From Rhodovarius crocodyli (GTDB lineage: Bacteria > Pseudomonadota > Alphaproteobacteria > Acetobacterales > Acetobacteraceae), in NCBI RefSeq assembly GCF_004005855.1, contig NZ_SACL01000001.1, positions 1,054,001-1,118,000 on the forward strand: DNA of 64,000 bases, read 5' to 3'. Below the pieces are notes generated by a model, which worked only from the letters and a program-made list of their open reading frames with translations, ran no database searches and was not told where the DNA came from. Position 1 is the stretch's first letter. Each line of letters begins with the position of its first letter. Of this stretch, positions 12,147 to 27,702 are shown piece by piece. The position numbers and the translations under genes were made by a program.

Positions 12147-12971
12147 ATGGCCAATATCCGCAGCCTTTCCACCGCCGAGATGACCCTGCCCGTCGAATGG
12201 GCGGCCCGGGAGGGCTGGAACCCGGGGCTGGACGATGTTCCGGCCTTCCTGGCTGAGGACCCCGGTGCCTTCCTGGTGCTGGAGGAAGCGGGGGTGGCGC
12301 GCAGCTGCATCAGCGCCGTGCGCTATGGGGCCGAGATGGGCTTCATCGGCTTCTATATCGCGGACCCCGCGATCAGGGGGCGGGGCCTGGGCTTCGCGCT
12401 GTGGCAGGCGGCGATGGCGCGGCTGGAAGGGCGCGTGATCGGGCTGGATGGGGTGGTGGCCCAGCAGGAGAATTACCGGAAATCGGGCTTCGCGCTGGCC
12501 TGGAACAACGCGCGCTACACGGTGGCCCGGGCGCCGCGCTGGCCCGTGCCGCAGGGCGTGGTGCCGGCGGCGGCGGTGGATTTCGGCGCGCTGGTGGCGC
12601 TGGACGCCGCGTGCTTCGGCACGCCGCGCCCGGCCTTCCTGCGTGCCTGGATCGAGACGCCGGGCCATGTGGCGGTGGCGCTGCCGGGCGGCGCGGGGCT
12701 GGCCGCGCTGCGCCCCTGCCGCGAGGGCCACAAGATAGGCCCGCTGCTGGCGCCCGATGCGGCGGGCGCGCGCCTGCTGTTCCAGGGCCTGGCGGCACAG
12801 GCCCCCGGCCCCCTGACGCTGGACGTGCCGGAGGACCACGCCCCCGCCGTGGCCCTGGCGCGCGAGGCGGGCATGGAAAAGGTGTTCGAGACGGCGCGCA
12901 TGTATGCGGGCCCTGCCCCCGCCATCGACCGCGCGCGGCTGTTCGGGGTCGCGAGCTTCGAGCTGGGTTAG
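12147..12971 (+). CDS. GNAT family N-acetyltransferase with C-terminal YitH-like domain
   Basis: A 274-residue protein. The N-terminal half is a GNAT domain with the acetyl-CoA pyrophosphate-binding loop RGRGLGFALW near residue 75 and a following QQENYRKSGF, typical of the last strand-helix of the fold. The C-terminal half (about residues 140-274) resembles the second acetyltransferase-like domain seen in YitH-type proteins. The substrate cannot be told from sequence. It is divergent from lysA and its stop overlaps by 4 nt the stop of the convergent phosphatase-kinase gene. Confidence 0.82.
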   Translation: MANIRSLSTAEMTLPVEWAAREGWNPGLDDVPAFLAEDPGAFLVLEEAGVARSCISAVRYGAEMGFIGFYIADPAIRGRGLGFALWQAAMARLEGRVIGLDGVVAQQENYRKSGFALAWNNARYTVARAPRWPVPQGVVPAAAVDFGALVALDAACFGTPRPAFLRAWIETPGHVAVALPGGAGLAALRPCREGHKIGPLLAPDAAGARLLFQGLAAQAPGPLTLDVPEDHAPAVALAREAGMEKVFETARMYAGPAPAIDRARLFGVASFELG

Positions 12972-14692
12972 GTGTAGAGCCGGTACAGCAGCGCCAGTAC
13001 CGTCACGCCCAGCACCGCGCAGCTGGCCTGCCAGAACAGCAGCGGATTGCGCTGCAGCAGCGGGCGCGGCGCGCCGAAGGCCGTGTTGGGGTGGCGCAGG
13101 TCGAACAGGAACTCCGACAATTCCTCGTAGCGGTCGGCGGGGTCCACCGCGACCGCCTTTTCCAGCGCCGCATCCAGCCAGGCCGGCACATGGCGATGGT
13201 CCTCTGAGGCCGGCTGGTAGCGCAGGCGGCGCTGCTGGGCACGGCTGCGGGCCTGCGCCACCGCCGCGCCATAGGGCAGCCGCCCCGTCAGCATCTGATA
13301 GGCGATGACGCCCAGCGAAAACAGGTCCGAGCGCGGGGTCCCGGCCTCGCCCAGGAAGTATTCGGGGGCGGTGAACTGGACCGTGCCGAGGATCTCGGCC
13401 TCCTCCGGGGTGCCGGCCGCCTCGGCCACGCCGGCCACGCGGGTGGAGCCGAAATCGATGATCTTCACCGTGCCGGTGCGGTCGATCATGATGTTCTCGG
13501 GCCGCAGGTCCTGGTGCAGGATTTCCTTGCGGTGGAAGGCGCGCAGGCCGCGCGCCACCTGCTCCACGATGTCGCGCACCTGTTCCAGCGTGGGGTGCTG
13601 GTTGTCGCGCATCCATTGGGACAGGGTCTGGCCCTCGATGTATTCGCTGACGACGTAGAGGTAGCGCTGCTCTCCGGGGCGGCCGCGCGGGCGCAGCACA
13701 TGGGCGCTGTCCACCCGGCGCGCGACCCATTCCTCCAGCATGAAGCGCTTCAGATAGGCCGCGTCCTCACGCAGGTCGACGGAGGGGACCTTCAGCGCGA
13801 CCAGCGCGCCATCGGCCATGTCCTCGGCCAGCCAGATATGGGAGCGCGCGCTGGCGTGCAGCTGGCGCTGGATGCGGTAGCCGTCGAATTCCATGCGCGG
13901 GGACAGCGCGGGCGGCAGGCGCAGGGCCTCGGCCAGGGTCAGGGCCTCGGCCGCGTCGGGGGCGGGCACGGCGTCGACGCGGATCAGCTGGACGGTCAGA
14001 TTGTCCGTGCTGCCGGCCTCCAGCGCCGCCTCCGCGATGCGCCGGGCGGCGGCGTCCAGGTCGGCCGTGCCCTCATGGACGATGCGGGCGATGTCGCGCG
14101 GGGGGACGTGCTCATAGACGCCGTCGGTCACCAGCAGGAACACGTCGCCGGGCGAGACGGGCTCGGCGTGATAGTCGATGTCCACCTCGCGCGCGGCCCC
14201 CAGCGCCCGGCCCAGATAGGATTGCCGGGAGGAGACGATGACGCGGTGGTCCTCCGTCAGCTGTTCCAGCGACTGGCCGGCCAGGCGATAGATCCGGCTG
14301 TCGCCCACATGCAGCAGATGCGCGGTGGCGGAGGCCAGCACCAGCACGGACAGGGTGCAGACATAGCCCTTGTCCATGTCCTCCGTGCCCATGGCGGAGC
14401 GCGTCTGGGCATGCAGCCAGGAATTGGTGGCCGCGATCACCCGCTGGGCGGAGGTGCGGACCGTCCAGGCGGGGGAGGTGCAGTAGTAGTCGTTGAGGAA
14501 GCTTTTCACCGCCGTCTCGGCGGCGATGTGGCCGACGGCGCTGGAGCTGATGCCGTCCGCCAGGGCGACGGCGATGCCCTTGGCGCGCAGCAGCGCGTCC
14601 TCGGGCACCAGCAGGCCGTGGAAGTCCTGGTTGGCTTCCTTGCGGCCCTTGTCGGAATACTGCCCGGCCGAGATGCGCAGCGCGGCGGTCAT
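12968..14692 (-). CDS. bifunctional PP2C-type protein phosphatase / Ser-Thr protein kinase, membrane-anchored
   Basis: A 574-residue fusion. Residues about 1-235 form a PP2C phosphatase domain (NQDFHGL, ADGISSSAVG, HVGDSRIYRL, VTDGVYE; the Asp residues bind metal). Residues about 260-540 form a Hanks-type kinase: VALKVPS with the ATP lysine, HQDLRPENIM as catalytic loop and IIDFGS as the metal-binding DFG. The C terminus is one hydrophobic segment (ASCAVLGVTVLALLYRLY), so the enzyme is probably tethered with its catalytic domains in the cytoplasm. ATG at 14692 is chosen; an upstream in-frame extension overlaps the channel gene. It lies 19 bp behind the formate/nitrite channel gene, a pairing known from nitrate/nitrite loci, which suggests it controls nitrite uptake or assimilation (inference). 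Confidence 0.92.
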   Translation of the reverse strand: MTAALRISAGQYSDKGRKEANQDFHGLLVPEDALLRAKGIAVALADGISSSAVGHIAAETAVKSFLNDYYCTSPAWTVRTSAQRVIAATNSWLHAQTRSAMGTEDMDKGYVCTLSVLVLASATAHLLHVGDSRIYRLAGQSLEQLTEDHRVIVSSRQSYLGRALGAAREVDIDYHAEPVSPGDVFLLVTDGVYEHVPPRDIARIVHEGTADLDAAARRIAEAALEAGSTDNLTVQLIRVDAVPAPDAAEALTLAEALRLPPALSPRMEFDGYRIQRQLHASARSHIWLAEDMADGALVALKVPSVDLREDAAYLKRFMLEEWVARRVDSAHVLRPRGRPGEQRYLYVVSEYIEGQTLSQWMRDNQHPTLEQVRDIVEQVARGLRAFHRKEILHQDLRPENIMIDRTGTVKIIDFGSTRVAGVAEAAGTPEEAEILGTVQFTAPEYFLGEAGTPRSDLFSLGVIAYQMLTGRLPYGAAVAQARSRAQQRRLRYQPASEDHRHVPAWLDAALEKAVAVDPADRYEELSEFLFDLRHPNTAFGAPRPLLQRNPLLFWQASCAVLGVTVLALLYRLYT

Positions 14693-14711
14693 CGGCCGGG
14701 AACCCTTGTGC

Positions 14712-15524
14712 TCAGGCGGGCTTGCGCTTGGGCGCGGTGCGGACATGGGTGGAATACAGCGTGAGACCCACGAAGGTGATGCCGCCCACCAGGTTGCCGA
14801 TCACGGTCGGGATCTCGTTCCACAGCATGTAGTCCCAGAAGGAGAAGTGACCGCCCAGCATCAGGCCCGAGGGGAACAGGTACATGTTCACGATCGAATG
14901 CTCGAAGCCCATGTAGAAGAACACCATGATGGGCATCCACATGGCGATCACCTTGCCGGAGACGGAGGTGGACATCATGGCCGCGACCACGCCGGTGGAC
15001 ACCATCCAGTTGCAGAGCACGCCGCGGATGAACAGCGTCAGCATGCCGGCGGCGCCATGGGCGGCATAGCCGACGGTCCGGCCCTCACCGATGCTGCCGA
15101 TGCGCTGGCCGACGGCGTTCGGTGCCTCCGTGAAGCCGAAGGTGAAGATGATGGCCATCATGACCGCGACGGTCAGCGCGCCCGCGAAATTGCCGAAGAA
15201 CACGATGGTCCAGTTGCGCAGCATGCCGCCCACGGTCACGCCCGGGCGCTTGTCGATCACGGCCAGCGGCACGAGGGTGAACACGCCCGTCAGCAGGTCG
15301 AAGCCCAGCAGGTACAGCAGGCAGAAGCCCACCGGGAACAGGATGGCGCCCACCAGCGGCTGGCCGGTCTGCACCGTGATGGTCACGGCAAAGGCGGCGG
15401 CCAGGGCCAGGATCGCGCCCGCCATATAGGCGCGGATGAAGGTGTCGCGGGTGGACATGAAGACCTTCGCCTCGCCGGCGTCGATCATCTTGGTCACGAA
15501 TTCCTGGGGCGCCAGGTAAGACAT
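14712..15524 (-). CDS. formate/nitrite transporter family channel (FocA/NirC)
   Basis: A 270-residue inner-membrane protein with about six hydrophobic segments and FNT-type loops (GFDLLTGVF, GNFAGALTVA, RGVLCNWMVS, GFEHSIVNMYL). The family forms pentameric channels for formate, nitrite or similar small anions. Whether this one prefers nitrite is inferred from the kinase-phosphatase behind it. The start has TGGAG at good spacing. Its leader contains a perfect hairpin at 15652-15671. Family assignment is secure; substrate is not. Confidence 0.92.
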   Translation of the reverse strand: MSYLAPQEFVTKMIDAGEAKVFMSTRDTFIRAYMAGAILALAAAFAVTITVQTGQPLVGAILFPVGFCLLYLLGFDLLTGVFTLVPLAVIDKRPGVTVGGMLRNWTIVFFGNFAGALTVAVMMAIIFTFGFTEAPNAVGQRIGSIGEGRTVGYAAHGAAGMLTLFIRGVLCNWMVSTGVVAAMMSTSVSGKVIAMWMPIMVFFYMGFEHSIVNMYLFPSGLMLGGHFSFWDYMLWNEIPTVIGNLVGGITFVGLTLYSTHVRTAPKRKPA

Positions 15525-15837: not shown

Positions 15838-16554
15838 CTAGGCCGCGATTGCCGCCATTTTGGGCAGCTCGGCCATGGAAAAGAGGTGCGCGTAGACGGC
15901 CTCCAGATAGCCCTTGTCCCGCAGCTCGGTCAGCTGGGCGCCGTCGAGGCGGGAGAACGCCTCTTTCTGGATGGCGCGGAAGCCCTCGATCTTGGTGGGC
16001 TGGCCGTCGCGCTGGAACTGCACGGCGGCGGGCTGCAGCAGGCCCAGCGTGTTCAGGGCCTCGCACATGGTGCGGGTGCGCTGCATGGCGCGTTCCAGGT
16101 CGCGGGTGAAGGCGAAGGCCTTGTCCAGCGCGGGGGCGGGCTTGCCGGCCTCGAACAGGGGCTCTCCTTCCCCGGAGAGCTGGGCGGCGGTGGGGTCCAG
16201 GCACAGGGCCATGTCCTCTGCCCCGTCGCGCAGGCGGGCCAGGAAGAAGGGATAGCGGCGCAGATAGGCGGGGATGTAGAGCCCCTCGGGCCAGCTGCCG
16301 TCCGGGCCGACATGGGGGTTGCGGCCGGGCGTGAGGCCCATGATGGCCACCGGCATGTGCGGGGCCTCCGCCGTGAACACCACGGGGTGGTGGCGGCCGG
16401 CGACGGCCATTTCCTCCTGCGCGACGGGCACGGCGGCGAGTTCGGCCGCGAAACCGTAGCCCGCGTCGCGAAGGCGCAGCGTGCCGTGGCGCTCGGGCGT
16501 CACGGGTTCCAGCGCGCGATAGAGCGAAGGCAGCAGCGTGGTCTCGCCGGTCAT
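15838..16554 (-). CDS. SapC family protein
   Basis: A 238-residue protein matching the alphaproteobacterial SapC family (PF07277-type): PVAQEEM near the N terminus, a PHVGPDGSWPEGLYIPAYLR core, RRYPFFLAR, a GEGEPLFEAGKPAP loop and a C-terminal IYAHL-like AVYAHLFSM. There is no signal peptide or membrane segment. In Caulobacter- and Sphingomonas-type genomes SapC genes often sit beside JmjC/cupin-like genes and TonB receptors; here a JmjC gene lies 1.3 kb away on the opposite strand. The biochemical role is unknown. The start has GGGAGGAT, and the palindrome CCCGATATCGGG lies 10 bp upstream. Confidence 0.85.
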   Translation of the reverse strand: MTGETTLLPSLYRALEPVTPERHGTLRLRDAGYGFAAELAAVPVAQEEMAVAGRHHPVVFTAEAPHMPVAIMGLTPGRNPHVGPDGSWPEGLYIPAYLRRYPFFLARLRDGAEDMALCLDPTAAQLSGEGEPLFEAGKPAPALDKAFAFTRDLERAMQRTRTMCEALNTLGLLQPAAVQFQRDGQPTKIEGFRAIQKEAFSRLDGAQLTELRDKGYLEAVYAHLFSMAELPKMAAIAA

Positions 16555-16810: not shown

Positions 16811-17266
16811 ATGGCAGATGAAGAGAAGAAGCCGGCGCTCGGCAGGCGATTGCTGGTGGTGCGTGGCGTGGCGGCGGCCGGCGCGGCGGGTGCCGCCGTG
16901 GGCGCGCTGCTGCCTGGCGACGCGGCGGCCCAGCCCTATACCGGCATCACCGATGCGGACCCCAGCGACGGCCCCGGCCGTGGCCGTGGCGGCCGGCGCG
17001 GCACCGGCATCACCGACAACGACCCGAGCGACGGTGCCGGCAACGGCCGTGGCGGCTATCGCCCGCGCGGCACCGGCATCACGGACAGTGACCCGAACGA
17101 CGGCGCCGGCAACGGTCGTGGCCGCCGCGGTACCGGCCTGACGGACAGCGACCCCAATGATTCGCCCGGCAACGGGCGCGGGCGCCGCGGCACCGGCCTG
17201 ACCGACAACGACCCCAACGATTCGCCGGGCAACGGCCGTGGCGGCTACCGCCGCGGCGGCAAGTAG
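16811..17266 (+). CDS. exported repeat protein 1 (five TG[IL]TDxDPxDGxGNGRG repeats)
   Basis: I do not recognise a named family. The 151-residue product starts with a basic region and a Tat-like signal (GRRLLVV, then an Ala/Gly-rich hydrophobic stretch ending GDAAAQ near residue 40). The mature part is five repeats of about 20-23 residues: TGITDADPSDGPGRGRGG, TGITDNDPSDGAGNGRGG and so on, ending YRRGGK. Each repeat has three acidic positions (D-x-D-P-x-D) followed by a Gly/Arg-rich loop. The D-x-D-x-x-D-G spacing recalls calcium-binding loops, but that is inference. ATG at 16811 is chosen because AGGA precedes it and the signal peptide begins there. A paralogue and a JmjC oxygenase gene follow. 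Confidence 0.8.
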   Translation: MADEEKKPALGRRLLVVRGVAAAGAAGAAVGALLPGDAAAQPYTGITDADPSDGPGRGRGGRRGTGITDNDPSDGAGNGRGGYRPRGTGITDSDPNDGAGNGRGRRGTGLTDSDPNDSPGNGRGRRGTGLTDNDPNDSPGNGRGGYRRGGK

Positions 17267-17285
17267 GCGCCGCGTCATCGTTTCA

Positions 17286-17315
17286 GGCCATGGACGGCCC
17301 GTGCCGCCCATGGCC
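17286..17315 (+). terminator. strong hairpin between the two repeat-protein genes (attenuator or processing site)
   Basis: Arms GGCCATGGACGGC and GCCGCCCATGGCC pair at 12 of 13 positions around a CCGT loop, 20 bp after the stop of repeat protein 1. No T-run follows, so it is not a classic intrinsic terminator. It could partly attenuate read-through or protect the upstream mRNA, giving different amounts of the two repeat proteins. Confidence 0.5.
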
Positions 17316-17371
17316 AAATGTAACGGAAGGTTCCACCCACCTCACTTCACGGCAGGCAGGAAGAAACGCCC

Positions 17372-17851
17372 ATGAGCGACGATAACAACGAGAACAAGCC
17401 ACGTCTGGGGCGTCGCCAACTGGTGGTCAGGCTGACGGTGCTGGGCGCTGCTGGCGCCACCGCCGCCTGTGTGCCCGCGCAGCCCGTCGGCTATGCGCCG
17501 GCCCCCGTCTATCGCGGCACGGGCATCACGGATGCCGACCCCAATGACGGCCCGGGCAACGGGCGCGGCGGCTATCGTCGCGGCACCGGCATCACCGACA
17601 GCGACCCGAATGACGGCGTGGGCAACGGCCGTGGCGGGTATCGCGGCGGCTATCGCACCGGCATCACCGATGCGGACCCGAGCGACGGGCCCGGCAACGG
17701 CCGTGGCGGCCGGCGCGGCACGGGCATCACGGATGCCGACCCCAGCGACGGCCCGGGCAACGGGCGCGGCGGGTATCGCGGCGGCTATCGCAGCGGCCTG
17801 ACCGACAGCGACCCGCGTGACGGCGTGGGCCGTGGCCGCCGGGGCTACTGA
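17372..17851 (+). CDS. exported repeat protein 2, possible lipoprotein (five TG[IL]TDxDPxDGxGNGRG repeats)
   Basis: Paralogue of repeat protein 1, 159 residues. The N terminus has a Tat-like GRRQLVVR followed by LTVLGAAGATAAC; the Cys at about residue 34 could be a lipidation site, although the lipobox (TAAC) is not ideal. The mature part has five repeats, e.g. TGITDADPNDGPGNGRGGY and TGITDSDPNDGVGNGRGGY, with GGY(R) spacers, ending SGLTDSDPRDGVGRGRRGY. AGGAAG precedes the ATG. The stop is only 3 nt before the start of the JmjC oxygenase gene, so the two are almost certainly co-translated. Function is unknown; a substrate role for the oxygenase is proposed. Confidence 0.8.
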   Translation: MSDDNNENKPRLGRRQLVVRLTVLGAAGATAACVPAQPVGYAPAPVYRGTGITDADPNDGPGNGRGGYRRGTGITDSDPNDGVGNGRGGYRGGYRTGITDADPSDGPGNGRGGRRGTGITDADPSDGPGNGRGGYRGGYRSGLTDSDPRDGVGRGRRGY

Positions 17852-17854
17852 TCC

Positions 17855-19054
17855 ATGCCGCATGACGCCGTGACCCAGCAGCCCGACCCTTCGCTGACGG
17901 AGGAGGCCGTGGGCCTCGCCTTCGTCGGCTTGGCGCCGGAGGAGATACTGGCCCTGCGTGAGGGCACGGCGTGGAAGCATTTTCCCGCGCGGGGCGCCCA
18001 GCGCTTCGCGCATCTGTTGAGCCTGGCGGATATCGACGCCTATCTGCGCACCGACGGCGCGCGCAGCCCGCGCGTGGCCATGGCCGATGACAGCCGCCAG
18101 GGCAGCGCCGCCGTGCCGACGGAGGAATACGCCCTGCCGGACGGGCGCGTGGACCTGCCGCGCCTGTATCACCGCTTCGACAAGGGCGCGTCGCTCGTGC
18201 TGTCCCAGTTCCAGGACACGCACCCGCCGCTGGCGCGCTTCTGCCGGGGGCTGGAGAAGTTCTTCCTGCACGGGATGCAGACGAACATCTACCTGACGCC
18301 CCGTGGCGCCCAGGGCTTCCGCACCCATTACGACACGCATGATGTGCTGGTGATGCAGGTCTCCGGCCGCAAGCGCTGGCGCGTGTGGGACAAGCCGGGG
18401 CTGGAATACGCCACCCGTAACACCCCCTGGCCCGGCGACGTGGCGCCGGAGGGCGAGCCGCATGTGTTCGTGCTGGAGCCGGGAGAGGCGCTGTATATCC
18501 CGCGCGGCATCATGCATGACGCGGCCACCGAGGGCGACGAGCCTTCGCTGCACATCACGCTGGGCTTCGTCGAGGTCGGCTGGGGTGATCTGCTGGGCCG
18601 GCTGATCGCGGCCGAGGAAGCGGAGAACCCGGCCCTGCGCCATGCCGTGCCCACCTGGCGGCTGGGCGGGCCGGAGGGCATCGCGCTGCTGCTGGAACAG
18701 ATGGCCGAGCGCCTGCGCGGCCTGGCCGGCCAGGCCCAGGCGGAACGCCTGTCGGTGATGCTGCTGGACGGGCTGAACGAGGACCGGCAGCCCCTGCCGG
18801 CGCGCGGGCTGTTCCCCGCCCCGATCGACCCCGCGCGGCGCCTGCGCATGGCCGACGGCATGCACCACCATGTGGCCATCACCCCCGATGGGATGGCCGC
18901 CCTGCACTGGACCTGCGGCAACATCCCGCTCAACGAGGCCGAGCTGGGCTGGCTGGAGGCGCTGACGGAGGGTGCCTCGGCCGATGAGCTGGGCGAGGGC
19001 GCGCTGGAGTTCATGCAGGCGCTGAACCGCAACGGGCTGCTGGAAGCGGCCTGA
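17855..19054 (+). CDS. JmjC/cupin-type Fe(II)/2-oxoglutarate oxygenase (ROX-like)
   Basis: A 399-residue cytoplasmic protein of the Cupin_4/JmjC group, whose known members hydroxylate protein side chains (for example bacterial YcfD on a ribosomal Arg, human NO66/MINA53 on ribosomal His). The iron ligands are visible: H158-x-D160 in FRTHYDTHDVL and H221 in IPRGIMHDA, with QVSGRKRWRVW between them. A winged-helix-like C-terminal region (about residues 250-399) follows, as in ROX enzymes. It begins 3 nt after repeat protein 2 and has no strong Shine-Dalgarno sequence of its own, suggesting translational coupling. The context points to the adjacent repeats as substrate, but a ribosomal substrate remains the main alternative. 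Confidence 0.85.
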   Translation: MPHDAVTQQPDPSLTEEAVGLAFVGLAPEEILALREGTAWKHFPARGAQRFAHLLSLADIDAYLRTDGARSPRVAMADDSRQGSAAVPTEEYALPDGRVDLPRLYHRFDKGASLVLSQFQDTHPPLARFCRGLEKFFLHGMQTNIYLTPRGAQGFRTHYDTHDVLVMQVSGRKRWRVWDKPGLEYATRNTPWPGDVAPEGEPHVFVLEPGEALYIPRGIMHDAATEGDEPSLHITLGFVEVGWGDLLGRLIAAEEAENPALRHAVPTWRLGGPEGIALLLEQMAERLRGLAGQAQAERLSVMLLDGLNEDRQPLPARGLFPAPIDPARRLRMADGMHHHVAITPDGMAALHWTCGNIPLNEAELGWLEALTEGASADELGEGALEFMQALNRNGLLEAA

Positions 19055-19142: not shown

Positions 19143-19712
19143 ATGGGCAGCAATTTCGGCGGCGGGGCGGTGTTCAACGGGGCCTCGCCCTCCAGCCATC
19201 CGCAGATCGTGGCGCGCATCGTGCGGGATTACGTGCCGGCCGGCGGGCGGGTGATGGACATCGGCGGCACGGCGCATGGCTTCAAGGCGCAGGCGGTGCT
19301 GCCGGCGGGTGCCCGGCTGGTGATCGTGAACCCGGAGCCGGGTGTGGGCGCCGATGTGGCGGACACCAGCCACATTCCGCTGACGGAACCGCCCTTCGAC
19401 TTGGCGATGCTGTTCGGCGTGATCCTGCAATTGCCGAAGGAGATCGTGCGCGAGATCTTCAGCCTGGCGCGGCAGCGCCTGCGGGCCGGCGGCACCATGC
19501 TGGTGGCGGACCCCGACCCGACCGGGGTGGCCGGCACCATCGACCGCTACAGCAAGGCGATCTTCACGCCGCACAAGAAGTTCTTCGTGCACACGCCGGC
19601 CGAGACGCGGCAGATGCTGGCCGATGCGGGCTTCACGCGCTTCACGGACCGGCCGGATCTGCGGCCGGCGTTCCGCCAGCCGCCCTACTACATCCTGGCC
19701 GCGAGTTTCTGA
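19143..19712 (+). CDS. class I SAM-dependent methyltransferase-like protein
   Basis: A 189-residue protein with a Rossmann-type methyltransferase layout: motif I-like VMDIGGTAHG near residue 37, a PFDLAMLFGVI strand (motif II region) near residue 83 and RLRAGGTMLVADP (post-motif II) near residue 120. The motif I glycines are fewer than usual (DIGGTAHG), so activity is not certain. GGAGGG lies upstream of the ATG. It is 88 bp behind the oxygenase gene on the same strand and could share its transcript; a link to the repeat proteins is only positional. The terminator at 19845 follows. Confidence 0.65.
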   Translation: MGSNFGGGAVFNGASPSSHPQIVARIVRDYVPAGGRVMDIGGTAHGFKAQAVLPAGARLVIVNPEPGVGADVADTSHIPLTEPPFDLAMLFGVILQLPKEIVREIFSLARQRLRAGGTMLVADPDPTGVAGTIDRYSKAIFTPHKKFFVHTPAETRQMLADAGFTRFTDRPDLRPAFRQPPYYILAASF

Positions 19713-20197: not shown

Positions 20198-23100
20198 CTA
20201 GCCTGCCGCCTTCTCGATTTCGCGGCACAGGCGCTCGGTTTCGGCCGCCGGGTCCTGGAACCAGTCGGTGGACCACACCCGCGCCAGCTTCCAGCCCAGC
20301 CGCTCCAGCGCATCCTGGCGCAGCCTGTCGCGGTCGCGCGCGCTGCGGGCGTCGTGATAGGTGGCACCATCGCATTCGATGCCCAGCACGAAGCGCCCCT
20401 GCCGCTTCACCGCGATGTCGATGCGATAGCCGGCCACGCCGAGGGACAGCGCGACCTCATGGCCCTTCGCGCGCAGGGCGGCGGCGACCGAGGCCTCGAA
20501 GGGCGCCTGTTCGGCGGCCGCGGGGTCAGGCCGGGCGGGGTCGGCCCGGCCCTCGCGCGCATAGAGCAGATAATCCTTCAGCACCTGCACGCCGCGCGCG
20601 GTGCGGCCGGGCTCCACCACGATGTCCTCGGCCTGCAGGGAGGCGAACAGCATGATCTTCCGCTTGGCGCGGGTGAACAGCACGTTCAGGCGGCGATGGC
20701 CGTCCTGCGCGCGGTTCACCGGGAAGAAGCGCTGGTACATCACGCCCTGCGGGGTGCGGCCCCAGCCCAGCGAGATCATGATCACGTCCCGCTCGTCGCC
20801 CTGGACGTTTTCCAGGTTCTTCACGAAGGGCGGTTCCAGCTTCGCTTCCCAGGCATCGGCGTATTGGGCGGCGGCCTCGTCGTCGCGGGTCAGGCGGGCC
20901 AGCTCGGCCTCGATCAGTTCCTTCTGCGGCTGGTTCATCGCCACGATGCCGTGGCTGAGGCCGGGGTTCGCCTTCATGAACTCGACGGAGGCCTTCGCGA
21001 TCGCCTGGGCTTCCTCGACATTCACTTTGCTGCGCCAGTGGCCGTTCACCTGCACCAGCTCGATGCCCAGCGTGGCCGAGGGCGCGCGGGCGGCGGGGAA
21101 CACCACCAGGTTGCCGTCGTAGAATTCCTGGTTGGAGAAGGCGATCAGCGATTCATGCTGGCTGCGGTAATGCCAGCGCAGGCGCCGCCCGGGCCGGAAG
21201 GCGCGGCTGGCGAGATCGAGGATGCTCTCGGCCTCCACCTTGTCCTCGGCTGACAGCGCGGCCTCGTCCTCCTCATCCTCCTCGTCGTCGAGCAGGGAGC
21301 GGTCGAAGAAGTTGGTGGGGGGCAGCTGCTTGGAATCGCCCACGATCACGCATTGCGCGCCGCGCAGCAGGGCGCCCACGGAATCCTCGGGCTTGATCTG
21401 GCTGGCCTCGTCCATCACCACCAGGTCGAAGCGCAGCCCGTCGGGCTTCAGGTATTGTGCGACCGTCAGCGGCGACATCATCAGGCAGGGCGCGCGGGCC
21501 AGCACGGCATCGGCGGCGCGGGCCATCAGCTCGCGCACGGGGATGAAGCGCTGCTTCTTGCCCATCTCGTTCTGCAGCAGCGGCTCTCCGCGCCACTGGC
21601 GGCGGCTGCCCTCCGCGCTGCCCTTGGGGATGGGGCGCTTCTGGCATTCGGCGGTGACGGCGCCGGCGGCGTTCCTGATGCGCTCCCGGTCGGCCGCGGC
21701 GAAGCCCTGGCGCAGCGCCGAGAGCTGGGCGCCGGGGCGGCTGAACACGGCGCGCTCGGCCTCCGCGCGGGGGCGCACGGCGTTCCAGGCCAGGGCCCAG
21801 TCCAGGGCGGGCCCCAAGCCCTGGGGCGGATGCGCGGCCAGCACGGGGCCGGCCAGCGGGTCTTCCATCGCCTCGGCGCGGGTGCGGGCATAGGCGAGCC
21901 ATTGGCCCAGCCCCTCGGGCGCTGCCTGCATGGCGCGCAGGGTGGCGGCGCCGGTGCCGGCCGGCAGGCCCAGCGGCGCCAGCGCGGCCATTTCGCTGTC
22001 CAGCTTCGGCAGGGCCATCCGCAGCACATCGGCCACCTGGCGCAGCTGCCGCGCGGCATCGGTCCAGCCATCGGCCAGCAGGGGGCCGGGGTTGGGCAGG
22101 ACGGCGCGCAGGGCCATGACGAAGCCCGCCGTGGCGCGCAGCAGCCCGCGTTCCGGCACGCTGGGCGCGGCGTCGCGGGTGGCGGCGGCGCGGGCCAGGG
22201 CGGGCAGCTCCGACAGGCGCAGGGCGGGGTTCAGCCCGGCGGTCAGCGCCGCGATGCGCTTCAGCCGGTCGCCGCGCTCCGCCAGCAGGGATTGCGCGGC
22301 GGCCCAGGGCTTGTCGTCCGGCAGGCCGGTGCCGTCCAGGAAGGCCAGCAACGCGGTGGCAGGGGCGGCCAGGGCGGCCAGGCGCTGCACTTCCTCGGGT
22401 GCTGCGGCCAGCAGGGGGGCGGCCTCGGGCCGGGCCTGCCAGGCGGCGGCCTCGGCCATGGCGGCCAGCGGTGCCTCGCGCGGGTCCAGCGCGCCGGGCA
22501 GGGCGCGCAGCGCGGCGTCGGAGAACAGGGATTCCCGCAGCGCCGCTGCCTCCGCCGCCTGTTCCAGCAGGGCGGGCCATTGGTTGCGCGGCGGGCGGGG
22601 CTCGGTGCGCCAGCGGTCCTCGAACAGATAGCGCGCCTCGCGCACATCGGCCTTCAGGAAGGCCAGCATGCCGTCGGAGGCGCGCAGCGTGGCGGCGGCC
22701 TCCCGCAGCTTCTGCGCATCGGCGCGGGTCAGGTCGAACTTCTCGATGCCCAGCAGCGTGTCGCGCAGCCGGCGCTGGCGGGCGGCGCCGTCGGCCAGCA
22801 CGGCGGCATGGGCCTCAAGCCCCGGGCGGCGATGCGCGATGGCCTCGGGCGGCAGGGCGGCGGCGGCCTGGGCGGCGCGCGCCGCGCGGCGGATGGCGCC
22901 GATGTCGGACGTGGCGGGCACGCCCAGCGCCAGCACGGCCTGCGCCTGGGCGGCGAGGCCCGCGGCCTCCGTCTCGGCCTGGGCCAGCAGCTGCGGCAGG
23001 GTGGAGAGGGGCGCGTCGCCCAGCCCCTCGGCCAGGTCGGCCAGGGGGGCGAGGTCCGCGCCGTCACCCTGCACGCCCGCCGCGTCCAGCCGCGCCTGTG

Positions 23101-25048
23101 CGGCATCCAGCGCCAGCAGCGCGTCGATGGCGCCGGATGCGGCGAGGCCGGGCAGCAGGGAACGGTCGGCGGGCGGTTCCGGCAGGCGGGTCAGGGCCTC
23201 CAGCGTCGCGCGCATGTCCGTCACGGGCGCACCCAGCCGGGCGGCCAGCACGCTGCCGGCCTGTTCCACGGCGGTGGCCAGCGGCGCCAGGGTGGCGATG
23301 CCGGCCAGCAGCTTCTCCCGTTCCTCGGGGAACAGGTCTGAGCGGGCCAGCCCGGCGAAGGGCGAGGCGGCGGGGTCGAAGCCCTGGGCGGCGGCCTGCA
23401 CGGCTTCCAGCTTGCGGCGCGCCAGGCGCGGGGCGGCCGCATCGCCGGGGGCGGGCAGCACCACGCCGCGCAGCAGCCCGGGCAGCGCCGGGTATTGCCG
23501 CCCCAGCTCCGCCAGGCGGCCGATCAGGTCATGGACGGTCTCATCCTCGGGCCCCGCCTTGGCGTGCATCACGGCCAGGTGGTGGTCGATCTCGGTCTTG
23601 GCGCGGGCGGCTTCGGCCAGGCTGGCGGCGTTGCCGGCGGGGGCCGTGCGGGGCAGGGCGTCGCGCTGGCGCAGGGCCTCGATCACGGCTGCCGGGCGCG
23701 CGCCCGCCGAGTGCAGCGACAGGCAGAAGGCACCGAGGCCCACGCGGTCCAGCCGCTGCTTCACTACCTCCAGCGCGGCCATCTTCTCGGCCACGAACAG
23801 CACGGATTTGCCGTGATACAGCGCGTTGGCGATCAGGTTCGCGATGGTCTGGGATTTGCCGGTGCCGGGCGGCCCCTCGATGACCAGCGAGCGGCCCTGC
23901 ATGGCGTCGATGATGGCGCTGTGCTGGCTGCTGTCGGCATCCTGCACCAGCACCGGGGCCAGCCTGACGGATTCAGGCGCGTCGATGTCGTATTCCTGGG
24001 CGAAGTCGTCGCCCTCGCCGGCGGTGGAGCCGGCGCGCAGCAGGGGGCGCACCAGGCTGTGGTCCGTGGGCGGTGCGGCCCAGTTCGCGCGCTCCAGGTC
24101 GCGGTACATGGCGATGCGCGCGAAGCTGAAGGGGGCCAGCGTGATGAAGCGCCGCACGCGCCAGCGCGGGCGGGATCTCACCGCCTCTGCCACCGCCGCC
24201 AGATAGGTTTCGGCGGGGTTCTCGGCCTCGGCGTCCAGCGCGGGCAGGGCGAAGCGGAAATCGTCGCGCAGGCGCAGTTCCAGGCTGAGATTGCCGACCG
24301 GCGTGCCGTCGGTGGCCGTCAGGCGGAACTCCTCCTCGCCACCACGCCCGCGCTTGCCCTCCAGCGCCACCGGCAGCAGCAGCAGGGGCGAGACGCAGGG
24401 CTTGTCGTCGCGCTCGCTCTCGAACCATTCCAGGAAGCCGAGGGCGAGGTGCAGCGTGGCGACGCCGGTTTCCTGCTCGATGCCGCGCACGCGGTTCCTG
24501 AGCGAGCCGAGCTGGGCGCGCAGCTGGTCGGGGAACAGCAGGGTCTGGAGGGCGTCGTCCTTATGCTTGTCGGGTGCGGCCTCGGCGGCGGGCGGCATGT
24601 CGAAGGACGGTTCGACGCCATGTTCCTTCGCCCAGGCCGCGAGGTCGAGGTTGCGGCGCTCCGGCCGGGGCGGCATGCCGCGCGCAGCGCGGACGCGGTC
24701 ACGCAGGGCGCGTTCGACGCGCGCCACGGCCACCGCGTTGTCGGCATCGGCGGCGGCGTGGTCACGGCGATAGGCCTCGTCGGTCGCGCGGGCGGCTTCG
24801 AGCGCCGCACGGAACTCGTCATTGTCCTCGTCGCGGGGGTTGGGCTCGGGCTCGGGTAGGCCCTTGAAGCGCAGCGCCTTGTCGTCGCGCAGGCGCTTCA
24901 GCACCGCCTCGGGCTGTTCATCCACGATGCGGATGCCGGCGCCGCGTGAGCCATGGGGGAAATGCAGCAGCCGGTTGCGGCGGCTGCGGTCCACCAGGCG
25001 TTCGCGGAGCTCCTCATAGGCGCGGGCGGCGATGTCGATGTCTGGCAC
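20198..25048 (-). CDS. DUF4011 / superfamily 1 helicase / MTES_1575-type endonuclease protein (Hhe-like, putative antiphage)
   Basis: A 1616-residue protein. The N-terminal part contains the DUF4011 (HEPN-related) region with LVDRSRRNRLLHF. The SF1 helicase core has Walker A GPPGTGKSQTIANL near residue 395, MDEASQIKPED (Walker B) near 1210, GDSKQLPP, and RLNVLFTRAKRKIMLFAS near 1460. The C terminus (about 1530-1616) is a Vsr/DUF559-like nuclease with ECDGATYHD and RDRDRLRQDALERLGW. The same domain order defines the reported Hhe (DUF4011-helicase-Vsr) defence protein. The start is GTG at 25048 with no clear Shine-Dalgarno sequence. It is a single gene with no partner, ending 40 bp upstream of the tmRNA 5' end. 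Confidence 0.88.
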   Translation of the reverse strand: MPDIDIAARAYEELRERLVDRSRRNRLLHFPHGSRGAGIRIVDEQPEAVLKRLRDDKALRFKGLPEPEPNPRDEDNDEFRAALEAARATDEAYRRDHAAADADNAVAVARVERALRDRVRAARGMPPRPERRNLDLAAWAKEHGVEPSFDMPPAAEAAPDKHKDDALQTLLFPDQLRAQLGSLRNRVRGIEQETGVATLHLALGFLEWFESERDDKPCVSPLLLLPVALEGKRGRGGEEEFRLTATDGTPVGNLSLELRLRDDFRFALPALDAEAENPAETYLAAVAEAVRSRPRWRVRRFITLAPFSFARIAMYRDLERANWAAPPTDHSLVRPLLRAGSTAGEGDDFAQEYDIDAPESVRLAPVLVQDADSSQHSAIIDAMQGRSLVIEGPPGTGKSQTIANLIANALYHGKSVLFVAEKMAALEVVKQRLDRVGLGAFCLSLHSAGARPAAVIEALRQRDALPRTAPAGNAASLAEAARAKTEIDHHLAVMHAKAGPEDETVHDLIGRLAELGRQYPALPGLLRGVVLPAPGDAAAPRLARRKLEAVQAAAQGFDPAASPFAGLARSDLFPEEREKLLAGIATLAPLATAVEQAGSVLAARLGAPVTDMRATLEALTRLPEPPADRSLLPGLAASGAIDALLALDAAQARLDAAGVQGDGADLAPLADLAEGLGDAPLSTLPQLLAQAETEAAGLAAQAQAVLALGVPATSDIGAIRRAARAAQAAAALPPEAIAHRRPGLEAHAAVLADGAARQRRLRDTLLGIEKFDLTRADAQKLREAAATLRASDGMLAFLKADVREARYLFEDRWRTEPRPPRNQWPALLEQAAEAAALRESLFSDAALRALPGALDPREAPLAAMAEAAAWQARPEAAPLLAAAPEEVQRLAALAAPATALLAFLDGTGLPDDKPWAAAQSLLAERGDRLKRIAALTAGLNPALRLSELPALARAAATRDAAPSVPERGLLRATAGFVMALRAVLPNPGPLLADGWTDAARQLRQVADVLRMALPKLDSEMAALAPLGLPAGTGAATLRAMQAAPEGLGQWLAYARTRAEAMEDPLAGPVLAAHPPQGLGPALDWALAWNAVRPRAEAERAVFSRPGAQLSALRQGFAAADRERIRNAAGAVTAECQKRPIPKGSAEGSRRQWRGEPLLQNEMGKKQRFIPVRELMARAADAVLARAPCLMMSPLTVAQYLKPDGLRFDLVVMDEASQIKPEDSVGALLRGAQCVIVGDSKQLPPTNFFDRSLLDDEEDEEDEAALSAEDKVEAESILDLASRAFRPGRRLRWHYRSQHESLIAFSNQEFYDGNLVVFPAARAPSATLGIELVQVNGHWRSKVNVEEAQAIAKASVEFMKANPGLSHGIVAMNQPQKELIEAELARLTRDDEAAAQYADAWEAKLEPPFVKNLENVQGDERDVIMISLGWGRTPQGVMYQRFFPVNRAQDGHRRLNVLFTRAKRKIMLFASLQAEDIVVEPGRTARGVQVLKDYLLYAREGRADPARPDPAAAEQAPFEASVAAALRAKGHEVALSLGVAGYRIDIAVKRQGRFVLGIECDGATYHDARSARDRDRLRQDALERLGWKLARVWSTDWFQDPAAETERLCREIEKAAG

Positions 25049-25245: not shown

Positions 25246-25995
25246 CTATTTTCCTGCCCAATGCACCAGGCGCTTCTCAGCCACCAGAAACAGCAGGTTC
25301 AGCGAATACCCCAGTGCGCCCGCGATGAAGATCACCCCATACATCAGCCCGGTCTCGAATAGCGTCTGCGCCACGATCACGCGCTGGCCCAGCCCGTCCG
25401 TGCTGCCGATGAACATTTCCGCGACCACGACGATGACGAGGGCCAGCGAGATGCCGCTGCGCATGCCGACCAGGATCTGCGGCATCGCCTCCCACAGCAT
25501 CACATCCCACAGGATGCGGCCCTCTGAGGCGCCCATGACGCGCGCGGCCAGCACGCGGGTGCGGCGGGCGTTCATCACGCCATAGGCGGCGTTGAACAGG
25601 ATCACCAGCGCGGCGCCGAAGGCGGCCACCGCGATCTTGGTGCCCTCACCCACGCCGAACAGGATCAGGAACAGCGGGAACAGCGCGGAGGCAGGGGTGG
25701 AGCGGAAGAAGTCCACCACGAACTCGACGGCGCGGTAGATGCGCTCCCGCGCGCCAAGGGCCACGCCGAGCGGCACGCCGATCGCGGTCGCGATCAGGAA
25801 GGCCTGGATGGTGCGCCAGATGGTGCGCCAGGTGTCGAACAGCAGCGGGCCGTTGCGGAAGCCGTCGATGGTGTCGCGCAGGGTCTCGGCGGGGCTGGGC
25901 AGCAGCACGGGGTCGGCCACCTTCAGCAGCACGGCCACCCACCAGAACACGATGAAGCCCAGCGCGCCGAAAATGGGGGGAAGGATCGCCCTCAT
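25246..25995 (-). CDS. ABC transporter permease (SsuC/TauC type)
   Basis: Inner-membrane permease of 249 residues with about six hydrophobic segments and a permease loop with G at the ATPase contact (VMGASEGRILWDVMLWEAMPQI, given here as EGRILWDVMLWEA). This is the BPD_transp_1 fold of nitrate/sulfonate/taurine/pyrimidine-precursor importers. Its ATG overlaps the stop of the ATPase gene in an ATGA arrangement. Last gene of a five-gene minus-strand operon (VOC protein, two binding proteins, ATPase, permease). Substrate unknown. Confidence 0.88.
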   Translation of the reverse strand: MRAILPPIFGALGFIVFWWVAVLLKVADPVLLPSPAETLRDTIDGFRNGPLLFDTWRTIWRTIQAFLIATAIGVPLGVALGARERIYRAVEFVVDFFRSTPASALFPLFLILFGVGEGTKIAVAAFGAALVILFNAAYGVMNARRTRVLAARVMGASEGRILWDVMLWEAMPQILVGMRSGISLALVIVVVAEMFIGSTDGLGQRVIVAQTLFETGLMYGVIFIAGALGYSLNLLFLVAEKRLVHWAGK

Positions 25996-26756
25996 GCCAC
26001 GGCGACCGAGGCGGTGAAGACATCGAGCGCGCGCTTCTTCAGCGCGACGAAGGCGGGGTCGCTCAGGGTGTCGGGCGTGCGGGGCCAGGGCAGGGGCACG
26101 GGCATGTCATCCGCGATGGTGGTGGGGCGGCGGGTCAGCATCAGCACGCGGTCGGCCAGCGCGATGCTTTCCTCCAGGTCATGGCTGACCAGGATGGTGG
26201 TGATGGACAGGCGCTTCAGCACCTCCTGCAACAAGGTGCGCAGGGAGAGGGTGGTCTCGTAGTCCAGCGCGGAGAAGGGTTCGTCGAGGAACAGCACCTC
26301 CGGCTGCACGGCCAGCGCGCGCATGATGGAGGCGAGCTGCTGCTGCCCGCCCGAGAGCTCATACGGGTAGCGGTTGAGGTCGAAGCGGACGCGGAATTCG
26401 GCCTTCAGGTGATCCAGCCGCGCCTCGATGTCGCGCCTGGCCATGCCCTTGCGGCGCATCGGGTAGCGGATGTTGTCGGCGGTGGTCATCCAGGGGAAGG
26501 ACGCCTCGCGGTAGTTCTGGAACACGTAGCCGATGCCGGCCTCACGCGCCGTGCGGCCGTCGAACAGGATGGTCCCGCCATCCACCGGCATCAACCCGGC
26601 GGCCATGTTGATCAGGGTGGATTTGCCGCAGCCGTTGGGGCCGAAGATGGCCAGGATCTCGCCCTGGCGCACGTCCAGGTCGAAGCCCGAATAGACCGGC
26701 TGCCCGCCGAAGGCCTTTTGCAGGCCCCGGACGGATAGGGCGGGCCTAGAGGGCAC
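25992..26756 (-). CDS. ABC transporter ATP-binding protein (SsuB/TauB type)
   Basis: A 254-residue ATPase with Walker A GPNGCGKSTL, Q-loop FQNYRE, signature LSGGQQQ, Walker B VLFLDEPFSALD and switch His in LVSHDLEE. It energises the permease next to it. No ATG precedes the fold, so GTG at 26756 is chosen; it overlaps the end of the upstream binding-protein gene by 11 nt, consistent with coupling. The signature motif is LSGGQQQ rather than the commoner LSGGQRQ or LSGGMRQ. Confidence 0.9.
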   Translation of the reverse strand: MPSRPALSVRGLQKAFGGQPVYSGFDLDVRQGEILAIFGPNGCGKSTLINMAAGLMPVDGGTILFDGRTAREAGIGYVFQNYREASFPWMTTADNIRYPMRRKGMARRDIEARLDHLKAEFRVRFDLNRYPYELSGGQQQLASIMRALAVQPEVLFLDEPFSALDYETTLSLRTLLQEVLKRLSITTILVSHDLEESIALADRVLMLTRRPTTIADDMPVPLPWPRTPDTLSDPAFVALKKRALDVFTASVAVA

Positions 26757-27702
26757 GGATGAAGCTCTCGATATCGACGTTCTGGCGCACCACGCCCTGG
26801 CGCACGGCGAAGTCCACGAAGCGCTGCATGTCCTGCCGGTCCGACGCGGTGAAGTTCTTGATGAGGACGTAGGCCAGCAGGGGCACATGCTCGGCGAGCG
26901 GCGCGGGCACGTTGATGTGGCTGGTCAGGTACTGGCGCGTGGTGGGGTCGGTGCGGATCAGGGTGATCGCTTCCTCCCACGCCAGCGCGAAGCGGCGGGC
27001 GACGTCGGGCTTCTGGTCGAGGAAACGCTGGGTGAAGCCGGTGCCGGCGGCAAACGCCTTACCCTCCGGCCGGCCCAGGATGTATTTGGCGATGACGCCG
27101 GTTTCCAGGCGGCGGAACACGCCCGCGCGCTCACCCACCGTGGCGACGGGTTCCAGCGTATAGGCGGCGTCGAACTGGCCCGACTGCACGGCGCCGACAT
27201 GCACGCCCATGGGCTGTTCCGTCAGCGTGTAGTCGGCCGGCGCCAGGCCGGCACCCGCCAGGCAGCCGCGGGCCGCGGCCATGTTGGCGGGGCCTGGCGC
27301 GCAGGCGATGCGCGCGCCCTTGAGGTCGGCCACGGTCCGTGCGGTGCTGTTCGGGCGCACCACGAACTGCTCCATCACGTTCTCGGAATTCTGCCCCACC
27401 ATGGAGAAGAACACCGCGCTGCCGGGGCGCCGCGCGTTGATGTTCGCGGCCTCCAGCGTCACCAGGTTCGAGGTGCCGTCCGCCTCGCCCGAGACCATGG
27501 CCTGCACGATCAGCACCGGGGTCTGCAGCGTCTGCGTCACGCATTCGATGCCGTGCCTGGCGAAGATCCCGCGCTCGATCGCGGTGTAGTAGGGCAGCAC
27601 GGAGGTGACGTTGAACAGCGCGATGCGCACGCGGTCCAGCGTCTGGGCGCGCAGTACCGTTGGCGCGAGCAGGCTCGCACCCAGAAGGGCTCGGCGGTGC
27701 AT
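26746..27702 (-). CDS. ABC transporter substrate-binding protein (NMT1/THI5/SsuA type), paralogue 1
   Basis: Periplasmic binding protein of 318 residues with a short cleavable signal (MHRRALLGASLLAPTVLRAQ). The fold is that of sulfonate/nitrate/HMP-precursor binding proteins: VTSVLPYYTAIERGIF near the N terminus, SAVFF and a central TEQPMGVHVGAVQSGQFDA. It is a tandem paralogue of the next gene, 11 bp away. AGGAGAA precedes the ATG. The ligand cannot be inferred with confidence. Confidence 0.87.
   Translation of the reverse strand: MHRRALLGASLLAPTVLRAQTLDRVRIALFNVTSVLPYYTAIERGIFARHGIECVTQTLQTPVLIVQAMVSGEADGTSNLVTLEAANINARRPGSAVFFSMVGQNSENVMEQFVVRPNSTARTVADLKGARIACAPGPANMAAARGCLAGAGLAPADYTLTEQPMGVHVGAVQSGQFDAAYTLEPVATVGERAGVFRRLETGVIAKYILGRPEGKAFAAGTGFTQRFLDQKPDVARRFALAWEEAITLIRTDPTTRQYLTSHINVPAPLAEHVPLLAYVLIKNFTASDRQDMQRFVDFAVRQGVVRQNVDIESFIRAL

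Follow-up and report, generated by a model that had tools for sequence, protein, structure and literature searches.

In the FIH and AspH systems, one oxygenase serves many equivalent Asn/Asp sites in ankyrin or EGF repeats, and the substrates are folded domains. For bacterial members of the ribosomal oxygenase (ROX) family besides YcfD, we know of few substrates. JmjC-type enzymes have also been described in biphenomycin-type pathways for ribosomally synthesized and post-translationally modified peptides (RiPPs), where PbsQ and BpmG/BipG hydroxylate ornithine (PMC12257519, PMC12707348). RiPP recognition element (RRE)-like domains are fused to PF08007 domains in fish and algae, and the closest bacterial homologues lie in RiPP-like contexts (PMC12710340). 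Here we analyze a locus of Rhodovarius crocodyli in which two genes for exported repeat proteins, P0001 and P0002, precede a gene for a PF08007 oxygenase, P0003. It lies in a 64,000-nucleotide stretch of contig NZ_SACL01000001.1 (positions 1,054,001 to 1,118,000), the whole of which we call the window. Comparison with related loci suggests a RiPP-like system in which a disordered substrate is probably hydroxylated by the JmjC enzyme at Asp in every repeat and then exported by the twin-arginine translocation (Tat) pathway.

An earlier note on this DNA had described two five-repeat proteins with Tat-like signals, followed after 3 nucleotides by a JmjC gene encoding H158-x-D160 and H221. This layout is borne out, the 3 nucleotides separating the P0002 stop codon from the P0003 ATG. 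A search for sigma-70 promoters and terminators gave none above shuffled sequence. The features of the locus are as follows.

16811..17266, + strand: P0001, Tat-type exported repeat protein of 151 residues, apparently of the soluble type with an AxA-like site (open reading frame and motif reading)
16844..16849, + strand: P0001 twin-arginine codons (R12-R13)
16949..17239, + strand: P0001 five repeat units, with 13-residue cores from 16949, 17012, 17081, 17141 and 17201
17372..17851, + strand: P0002, second Tat-type repeat protein, 159 residues, lipoprotein-like (AAC, Cys33; open reading frame and motif reading)
17411..17416, + strand: P0002 twin-arginine codons (R14-R15)
17528..17839, + strand: P0002 five repeat units, with cores from 17528, 17594, 17666, 17729 and 17801
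17855..19054, + strand: P0003, JmjC_2 (PF08007) oxygenase of ROX architecture, 399 residues, the proposed modifying enzyme (Pfam, AlphaFold2)
18326..18334, + strand: P0003 codons for predicted Fe(II)-binding H158-x-D160 (alignments)
18371..18373, + strand: P0003 K173, counterpart of the ROX Lys that binds 2-oxoglutarate (invariant; aligned to the NO66 GRKLW motif)
18515..18517, + strand: P0003 codon for predicted Fe(II)-binding H221 (alignments)
18842..19048, + strand: P0003 C-terminal winged-helix region, residues 330-398, strands then helices in an RRE-like order (secondary structure of the model)

The proposed substrates are built around a short unit. P0001 and P0002 each contain five D-x-D-P-x-D units of the type T-D-x-D-P-x-D-x-x-G-x-G-R. 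The number given in the earlier note therefore stands, whereas its strict unit, TG[IL]TDxDPxDGxGNGRG, gives way to a looser one: two P0001 units have S rather than G after the third Asp, and the Asn position is Arg in one unit of each protein. Over the ten units, the protein holds T, D, D, P, D, G, G and R constant, although codon usage differs at all but two of these positions, and 585 codon-pair comparisons yield 175 silent differences versus 121 that change the amino acid. The repeats are thus not a product of chance, since protein residues are kept though most codons vary and the same pattern is seen in related genomes.

The statistics of the unit come from 480 distinct units in 114 open reading frames (ORFs) of the window's clade. 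These ORFs were picked by two or more D.DP.D matches, and the presence of D0, D2, P3 and D5 in all 480 units is fixed by that search pattern. Outside the pattern, T or S stands at position -1 in 95% of units, G8 and G10 are conserved in 100% and R11 in 96%, and position 9 is R in 45%, Y in 18%, N in 18% and Q in 10%. To lessen the circularity, we also counted units of the same ORFs that have G-x-G plus any three of D, D, P and D; all four were kept in 560 of these 564. AlphaFold2 predicts P0002 to be disordered (pLDDT 42), which would leave the repeats accessible to an enzyme.

At the N-terminus of both proteins, a short charged stretch is followed by twin arginines and a hydrophobic segment. 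Read from motifs, Ala-Ala-Cys33 makes P0002 resemble a Tat lipoprotein, and AxA before the repeats makes P0001 resemble a soluble Tat substrate. Twin arginines precede the repeats in 109 of the 114 homologous ORFs, and by loose patterns 45 of these are lipobox-like, 62 have AxA and 2 have neither. The TIGR01409 Tat model reaches P0002 at E 0.094, below its cut-off, and gives no match to P0001, while homologues from loci L255 and L186 score above the cut-off.

The evidence for an enzyme-substrate relation is the conservation of the pairing, which the earlier note had proposed as a check. In a sample of 150 Acetobacteraceae genomes that includes the window's own, 33 have a P0003 match of some kind, which in 19 is close (42-84% identity). 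Of the 19 loci with such a close JmjC gene (L003-L021), 18 have repeats at a distance of 1.5 kb or less, the exception being L018. The repeat-protein profile matches 20 genomes, namely all 19 with a close JmjC, the L018 genome (G005) included, and one further genome, G106. The tally is thus 19 genomes with both, one with repeats only and none with a close JmjC only (Fisher p 3.6e-23, uncorrected for kinship). At L020 (G088), the JmjC gene is split over two overlapping frames beside intact repeats, through a frameshift or a sequencing error.

The same association appears among named relatives, for which GTDB contigs were scanned with a JmjC alignment and the best 80 of 132 loci kept. They come from Rhodovarius, Roseococcus, Rubritepida, Neoroseomonas, Plastoroseomonas, Falsiroseomonas, Belnapia, Siccirubricoccus, Caldovatus, Humitalea and others, plus Phreatobacter metagenome-assembled genomes. 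Rubritepida flocculans and Roseococcus thiosulfatophilus are culturable species among those with the locus. ORFs with two or more D.DP.D occur in 72 of the 80 loci, always upstream of the JmjC gene and on its strand, and the nearest is within 100 nucleotides in 63 of the 72 and within 300 in 71. All but one of the 114 repeat ORFs lie within 2 kb upstream; the exception is a long frame at L100, and its repeats, too, are close by. The remaining eight loci have no repeat ORF in their flanks, and all eight of those genomes carry repeats elsewhere, so JmjC and repeats are kept together even without adjacency. Because genomes overlap, these 80 loci do not count as independent of the family sample: identical JmjC rows occur at L011/L064, L006/L044, L013/L100, L016/L092 and L014/L088, and L101 and L018, which share a repeat match, seem to be one genome. 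Adjacency in 72 of 80 loci and co-occurrence in 19 of 150 genomes give the pairing strong support.

Beyond the family, we searched 385 alphaproteobacterial genomes, of which the repeat profile matches 12 and PF08007 matches 74. Eleven of the 12, G304 among them, have JmjC_2 and repeat matches no more than 0.8 kb apart; the twelfth, G354, has a weak repeat match (6.7e-5) that is probably due to chance, and no JmjC. Repeats are mostly upstream here as well, and downstream of the JmjC gene at L187 and L193. Other alphaproteobacterial families have a second unit, TDSDSGxxADPxGxGRG, often mixed with the short one. A second repeat profile, run over 398 genomes of the phylum, matches 8, all Alphaproteobacteria. 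Four of these belong to family f23, which has short Tat proteins (104-149 residues as called) with two DxDNGxxxDxxGxGRG-type units; in all four genomes the JmjC gene divergently adjoins a repeat gene. A search of plasmids with an f23 repeat protein gave no match. In G304 (L195, 1306-1989), the repeat protein runs on past the repeats into a further domain, which we take to resemble a peptidoglycan-binding domain.

Other JmjC_2 genes provide a point of comparison. Among 29 such loci viewed in the class, repeats are nearby in 7 and absent nearby in 22, the latter including, by reading, YcfD-like and MINA-like genes. When 67 JmjC matches outside the 80 loci are scored with a profile of the window's clade, repeats are nearby in 33 of the 34 at 232 bits or above and in none of the 33 below; the 34 include six duplicates and one gene counted twice, and their exception is L018, with repeats elsewhere in its genome. 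To judge from these sequence comparisons, many alphaproteobacteria appear to pair a ROX-type JmjC with small Tat-signal Asp-x-Asp repeat proteins, and the repeat proteins are probable substrates of the enzyme.

These observations bear on the explanation that the repeats are plain acidic metal-binding or structural surface proteins and the JmjC a mere operon neighbor that acts elsewhere, for example on the ribosome. Asp-rich DxD repeats do resemble calcium-binding repeats in composition. ROX enzymes are also known to act on ribosomal proteins (PMC6006756, PMC9994133). However, P0001, P0002 and their homologues from L186 and L194 have no Pfam match at E<=1, EF-hand, TSP3 and other calcium repeats included, and P0001 has no match among PDB sequences. 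Moreover, the pairing survives changed gene order across families and persists in trans when the genes are not adjacent, and most of the other class JmjC_2 loci viewed lack repeats nearby. We therefore regard an enzyme that merely neighbors the repeats as very unlikely.

P0003 is a JmjC_2 protein (Pfam 2e-25, 89.2 bits versus a curated cut-off of 22). Its AlphaFold2 model, built from a 34-row alignment of named relatives (mean pLDDT 90.7, pTM 0.88), comprises a JmjC barrel, a helical region of the dimerization type and a C-terminal winged helix, a predicted arrangement that corresponds to the ROX architecture. The nearest solved structure by sequence is NO66 (7.8e-22). In a Foldseek search with the model, NO66 also comes first (E 5.4e-25, query TM-score (TMq) 0.74, 456 columns), followed by MINA53 (best TMq 0.72) and YcfD (about 0.56), with FIH far behind (about 0.35).

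H158, D160, H221 and K173 are invariant in both of our alignments, A1 with 18 rows and A4 with 34 (L103, which has a stop inside its stretch, was excluded from A4), and P0003 should accordingly be active if this conservation is a guide. The same residues bear on a non-catalytic role. Dedicated binding chaperones are common for Tat substrates, and a JmjC protein could serve the repeats as a chaperone or as an export quality-control factor; invariance of the metal and cosubstrate residues is unexpected without catalysis, however, and makes this explanation highly improbable.

The substrate pocket differs from those of characterized relatives. NO66 contacts its substrate through Arg297, Tyr328 and Ser421 and MINA53 through Tyr167 and Ser257 (PMC6006756 and PMC9994133, respectively). 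In our alignment the three NO66 residues correspond to V115, Y146 and G237 of P0003, and the Asp of the YcfD-like DDxMVS motif corresponds to N144 (local stretch QTNIYLT). With V115, G237 and N144 at these positions, P0003 is best described as a ROX relative with a different pocket. We also looked for conserved positive pocket residues as a mark of an acidic substrate; R or K at position 156 is common but not universal.

Asp, Asn and Arg had all been put forward as the modified residue in the earlier note. Asn is contradicted by its low frequency at its position (18% of the 480 distinct units). A choice between the other two is suggested by Streptomyces clavuligerus plasmids (16 records at 99% identity or above), whose JmjC ranks first among plasmid matches to an f23 JmjC (37% identity). 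A 48-residue peptide (WP_009999493) encoded 91 nucleotides upstream of this JmjC contains D-N-D-P-S-D and D-P-D-P-F-D, and has no Tat signal, no Gly and no Arg. Two or more D.DP.D arise in 0.1% of shuffled versions of the peptide. Across partner peptides and repeats, Asp is the sole recurring conserved core residue. The likely target thus moves from Asn or Arg to Asp, which we favor as the modified residue. At the S. clavuligerus locus (L271, 3775-5170), the DxDPxD peptide and JmjC genes are followed downstream by genes for an S9 peptidase and an ATP-binding cassette (ABC) transporter.

An alternative is that the JmjC acts on Arg in the GxGR half of every repeat, as YcfD does in ribosomal protein L16, with the Asp core serving only for recognition. 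The Arg is nearly invariant in the window's clade, is present in most alphaproteobacterial long repeats and lies in Gly-rich surroundings, and the related ROX enzymes YcfD and JMJD5 act on Arg (PMC9994133, PMC5862942). On the other hand, the S. clavuligerus partner has the Asp core twice without any Arg or Gly, which weakens Arg as the target. In addition, Asn144 of P0003 replaces the YcfD-like Asp, which presumably grips the substrate Arg. Modification of Arg is therefore unlikely in our view, and Asp remains the preferred site.

Five other Streptomyces JmjC genes (L274, L281, L282, L283 and L284) are preceded by peptides of 43-49 residues, four of which end in [SG]DGGGTG[RK]SDGND and one in SDNTGGKSDMNDT; NCBIfam has no model for the two of these peptides that were tried. 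In all five loci the order is peptide, JmjC, aldo/keto reductase and hypothetical protein, which looks like a peptide pathway. On a Rhizobium etli plasmid (L272, 1218-5143), a 77-residue peptide, a radical S-adenosylmethionine (SAM)/SPASM protein and a JmjC are encoded together. On a small mobilizable plasmid of E. coli (L275, 7.9 kb), a JmjC-like cupin gene lies directly behind an ABC transporter gene, and 25 Escherichia records match it.

A possible leader is suggested by an acidic motif, L-x-x-[DE]-[DEQ]-I, which occurs as L-E-P-D-E-I near the start of the S. clavuligerus peptide, while T-L-x-D-[DE]-[DEQ]-I precedes the twin arginines in f16, f128 and f23 repeat proteins. Outside the window's clade, 13 of 25 N-termini carry the motif, versus 0.036 in shuffles, with the caveat that it was drawn from the same sequences. 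The bearers are 11 of 23 alphaproteobacterial N-termini, the S. clavuligerus peptide and a 71-residue Dolichospermum peptide encoded two genes from a JmjC; the f23 proteins entered this count in part, and L247, whose N-terminus was cut before the motif, was scored as a miss.

Another alternative is that the reaction at Asp gives no stable alcohol but, for example, a macrocycle, a cross-link or an oxidative break in the chain, in which case a processed peptide of RiPP type would result instead of a hydroxylated protein. RiPP-type genes do lie near related plasmid JmjCs, and the bacterial homologues of PF08007 proteins are placed in RiPP-like contexts by PMC12710340, which cites for this, among others, a paper on macrocyclization by an alpha-ketoglutarate dioxygenase. 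We surveyed the window's own genes within about 8 kb for recurrence in the 80 loci, however, and no protease or radical SAM gene recurs among them, which makes a processed product quite unlikely for this locus compared with simple hydroxylation of Asp. A methyltransferase gene (19143-19712) was considered in this survey as a second maturase and rejected, a similar gene being found only at L033.

We also built trees of the JmjC proteins. A branch with 99/98 support in a 72-row tree has on one side 46 of the 48 rows labeled as repeat-associated, together with five labeled otherwise. For this tree, every fourth of the 80 loci supplied its JmjC, and the rows exclude six duplicate loci and any match below 180 residues. 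Labels were given per locus: the two outlying rows are paralogues at L096 and L108 that were labeled as repeat-associated on that account, and L072 was labeled as non-repeat since its repeats (GRGI) miss the label pattern. When Streptomyces, cyanobacterial and YcfD-like rows are added (with the L090_ACE row, a paralogue of that locus, removed), the repeat-associated JmjCs form two groups. One is the window's clade (100/100), and the other (90/91) holds the other alphaproteobacterial proteins with those of S. clavuligerus, Dolichospermum and R. etli and two odd rows.

Several observations weigh against the proposed system of Asp hydroxylation. The enlarged tree has no supported clade that unites the repeat-associated JmjCs; forcing all 23 into one costs 26 log units and is not rejected (p-AU 0.06, approximately unbiased test). 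The D.DP.D frame was found at only one of 15 plasmid loci scanned (L271-L285), that of S. clavuligerus, and the peptides beside the five other Streptomyces JmjC genes keep Arg or Lys. Within the window's clade, Arg is itself 96% conserved, and the leader-like motif is found in none of the 114 ORFs. Finally, the G106 draft of 250 contigs has repeats, and the JmjC paralogue in it is only a distant one; a repeat match in this genome stops 297 nucleotides short of a contig end, where no JmjC start was recognized.

Taken together, the comparisons support a model in which P0003, using Fe(II) and 2-oxoglutarate, would bind the short repeat proteins in the cytoplasm, where they are not yet folded. At least one Asp per [TS]-D-x-D-(P-x or S-G-x-x-x)-D unit would be oxidized, with beta-hydroxyaspartate as the most likely product; we infer hydroxylation rather than another oxidation. 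Modification in the cytoplasm followed by export is consistent with how the Tat pathway works. The finished proteins would leave through Tat; one paralogue would become a lipoprotein, and the other would be soluble, either in the periplasm or secreted. The product would be a disordered Asp/Gly/Arg polymer with regularly spaced oxygen ligands, and our guess is that it binds metal ions or other surface polymers.

We can extend this model tentatively, as a possibility that falls somewhat short of probable, to a new class of Tat-exported RiPP-like polymers. The RRE-like winged helix would guide the ROX JmjC, arrays of beta-hydroxyaspartate would be laid down in D-x-D repeats across Alphaproteobacteria, with a leader-peptide relative in Streptomyces, and the resulting surface metal sites would need O2, iron and 2-oxoglutarate for their formation. 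In either form, the proposed system gives a large group of bacterial JmjC proteins a concrete candidate substrate in which near-identical sites recur many times, and it would link protein hydroxylation with Tat export. Should Asp indeed be hydroxylated, the system would be a bacterial counterpart of EGF and ankyrin repeat hydroxylation in animals, and it could supply enzymes for decorating disordered polymers at defined intervals.

The divergent neighbor of P0001 is the following gene.

15838..16554, - strand: SapC (PF07277), divergent neighbor (Pfam)

A SapC-like gene is present in 22 of the 80 loci, truncated ones being counted among the 80; SapC was considered as a further component and set aside. 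The ORF at 25995-26924 encodes a generic ABC transporter ATPase (Pfam) with matches in 16 of the 80 loci, a recurrence that means little for so widespread a kind of protein. Repeat genes also occur away from JmjC genes. R. crocodyli has a third one on another contig (G000:C8:10925-11338, a repeat-profile match), and among 17 such stretches examined, a simple gene caller found a repeat ORF in 10. The sole neighbor shared there, by eye, is a protein beginning MAYTVGELVAEFLP, encoded beside L169 and L178, the extra repeat genes of the R. crocodyli genome and of another genome in its genus. The R. crocodyli genome also has a second JmjC_2 gene (G000:C11:1222022-1222333, L002), which belongs to a MINA-like group and has no repeats nearby, and similar MINA-type genes occur in other genomes of the family.

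Elsewhere in the window, a 1616-residue protein (20198-25048, - strand) has DUF4011, AAA helicase parts and an MTES_1575 nuclease domain. It matches the PADLOC models PDC-S37 (1091 bits) and Hhe (792 bits) and is probably an anti-phage defense protein. At 12968-14746 (- strand), a PP2C phosphatase is fused to a Ser/Thr kinase in a frame that overlaps the end of a formate/nitrite transporter gene (14712-15524, - strand).

Comparison with known systems places P0003 closest to NO66 and MINA53, which share with it the PF08007 domain, the three-part architecture, the Fe and 2-oxoglutarate residues and a pocket Tyr (Tyr328 of NO66, Y146 here). However, the substrate-binding Arg297 and Ser421 of NO66 are absent, being replaced by V115 and G237, and NO66 and MINA53 are histidine hydroxylases, whereas the substrate proposed here is an exported repeat protein nearly without His. 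YcfD, the arginine hydroxylase of ribosomal protein L16, resembles P0003 in being bacterial and of the same superfamily with a related fold (TMq about 0.56). It differs in its lower similarity and in the Asp of DDxMVS where P0003 has Asn144, and no repeats lie beside YcfD-like genes in the loci viewed. The likeness to FIH and AspH is one of function, in that a single oxygenase would serve a multi-site repeat protein, although the FIH fold is remote from that of P0003 (TMq about 0.35).

The earlier note had known of no described system of this kind. That holds for the pair itself: our literature search, outside which subscription journals largely lay, found no paper on a JmjC with a Tat-exported Asp-repeat protein. 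It does not hold for the broader type, as JmjC hydroxylases of RiPPs have already been published. PbsQ, BpmG and BipG resemble the proposed system in that a JmjC or cupin-like enzyme modifies a genetically linked ribosomal peptide. Their target is ornithine made from Arg in a short precursor that is handled by several maturases; here, by contrast, we find Asp-rich tandem repeats, Tat export and one enzyme. The RRE-PF08007 proteins share with P0003 the order of strands then helices, which the model places at the P0003 C-terminus, and the accessible part of their account names no Tat repeat substrates (PMC12710340). Given PbsQ and BpmG/BipG, the enzyme-substrate relation proposed here is of a known kind in an apparently undescribed, Tat-exported Asp-repeat form. 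As in RiPP systems, the enzyme gene lies beside that of a short ribosomal candidate substrate, in 72 of the 80 named loci and in 11 of the 12 repeat-bearing genomes of the class.

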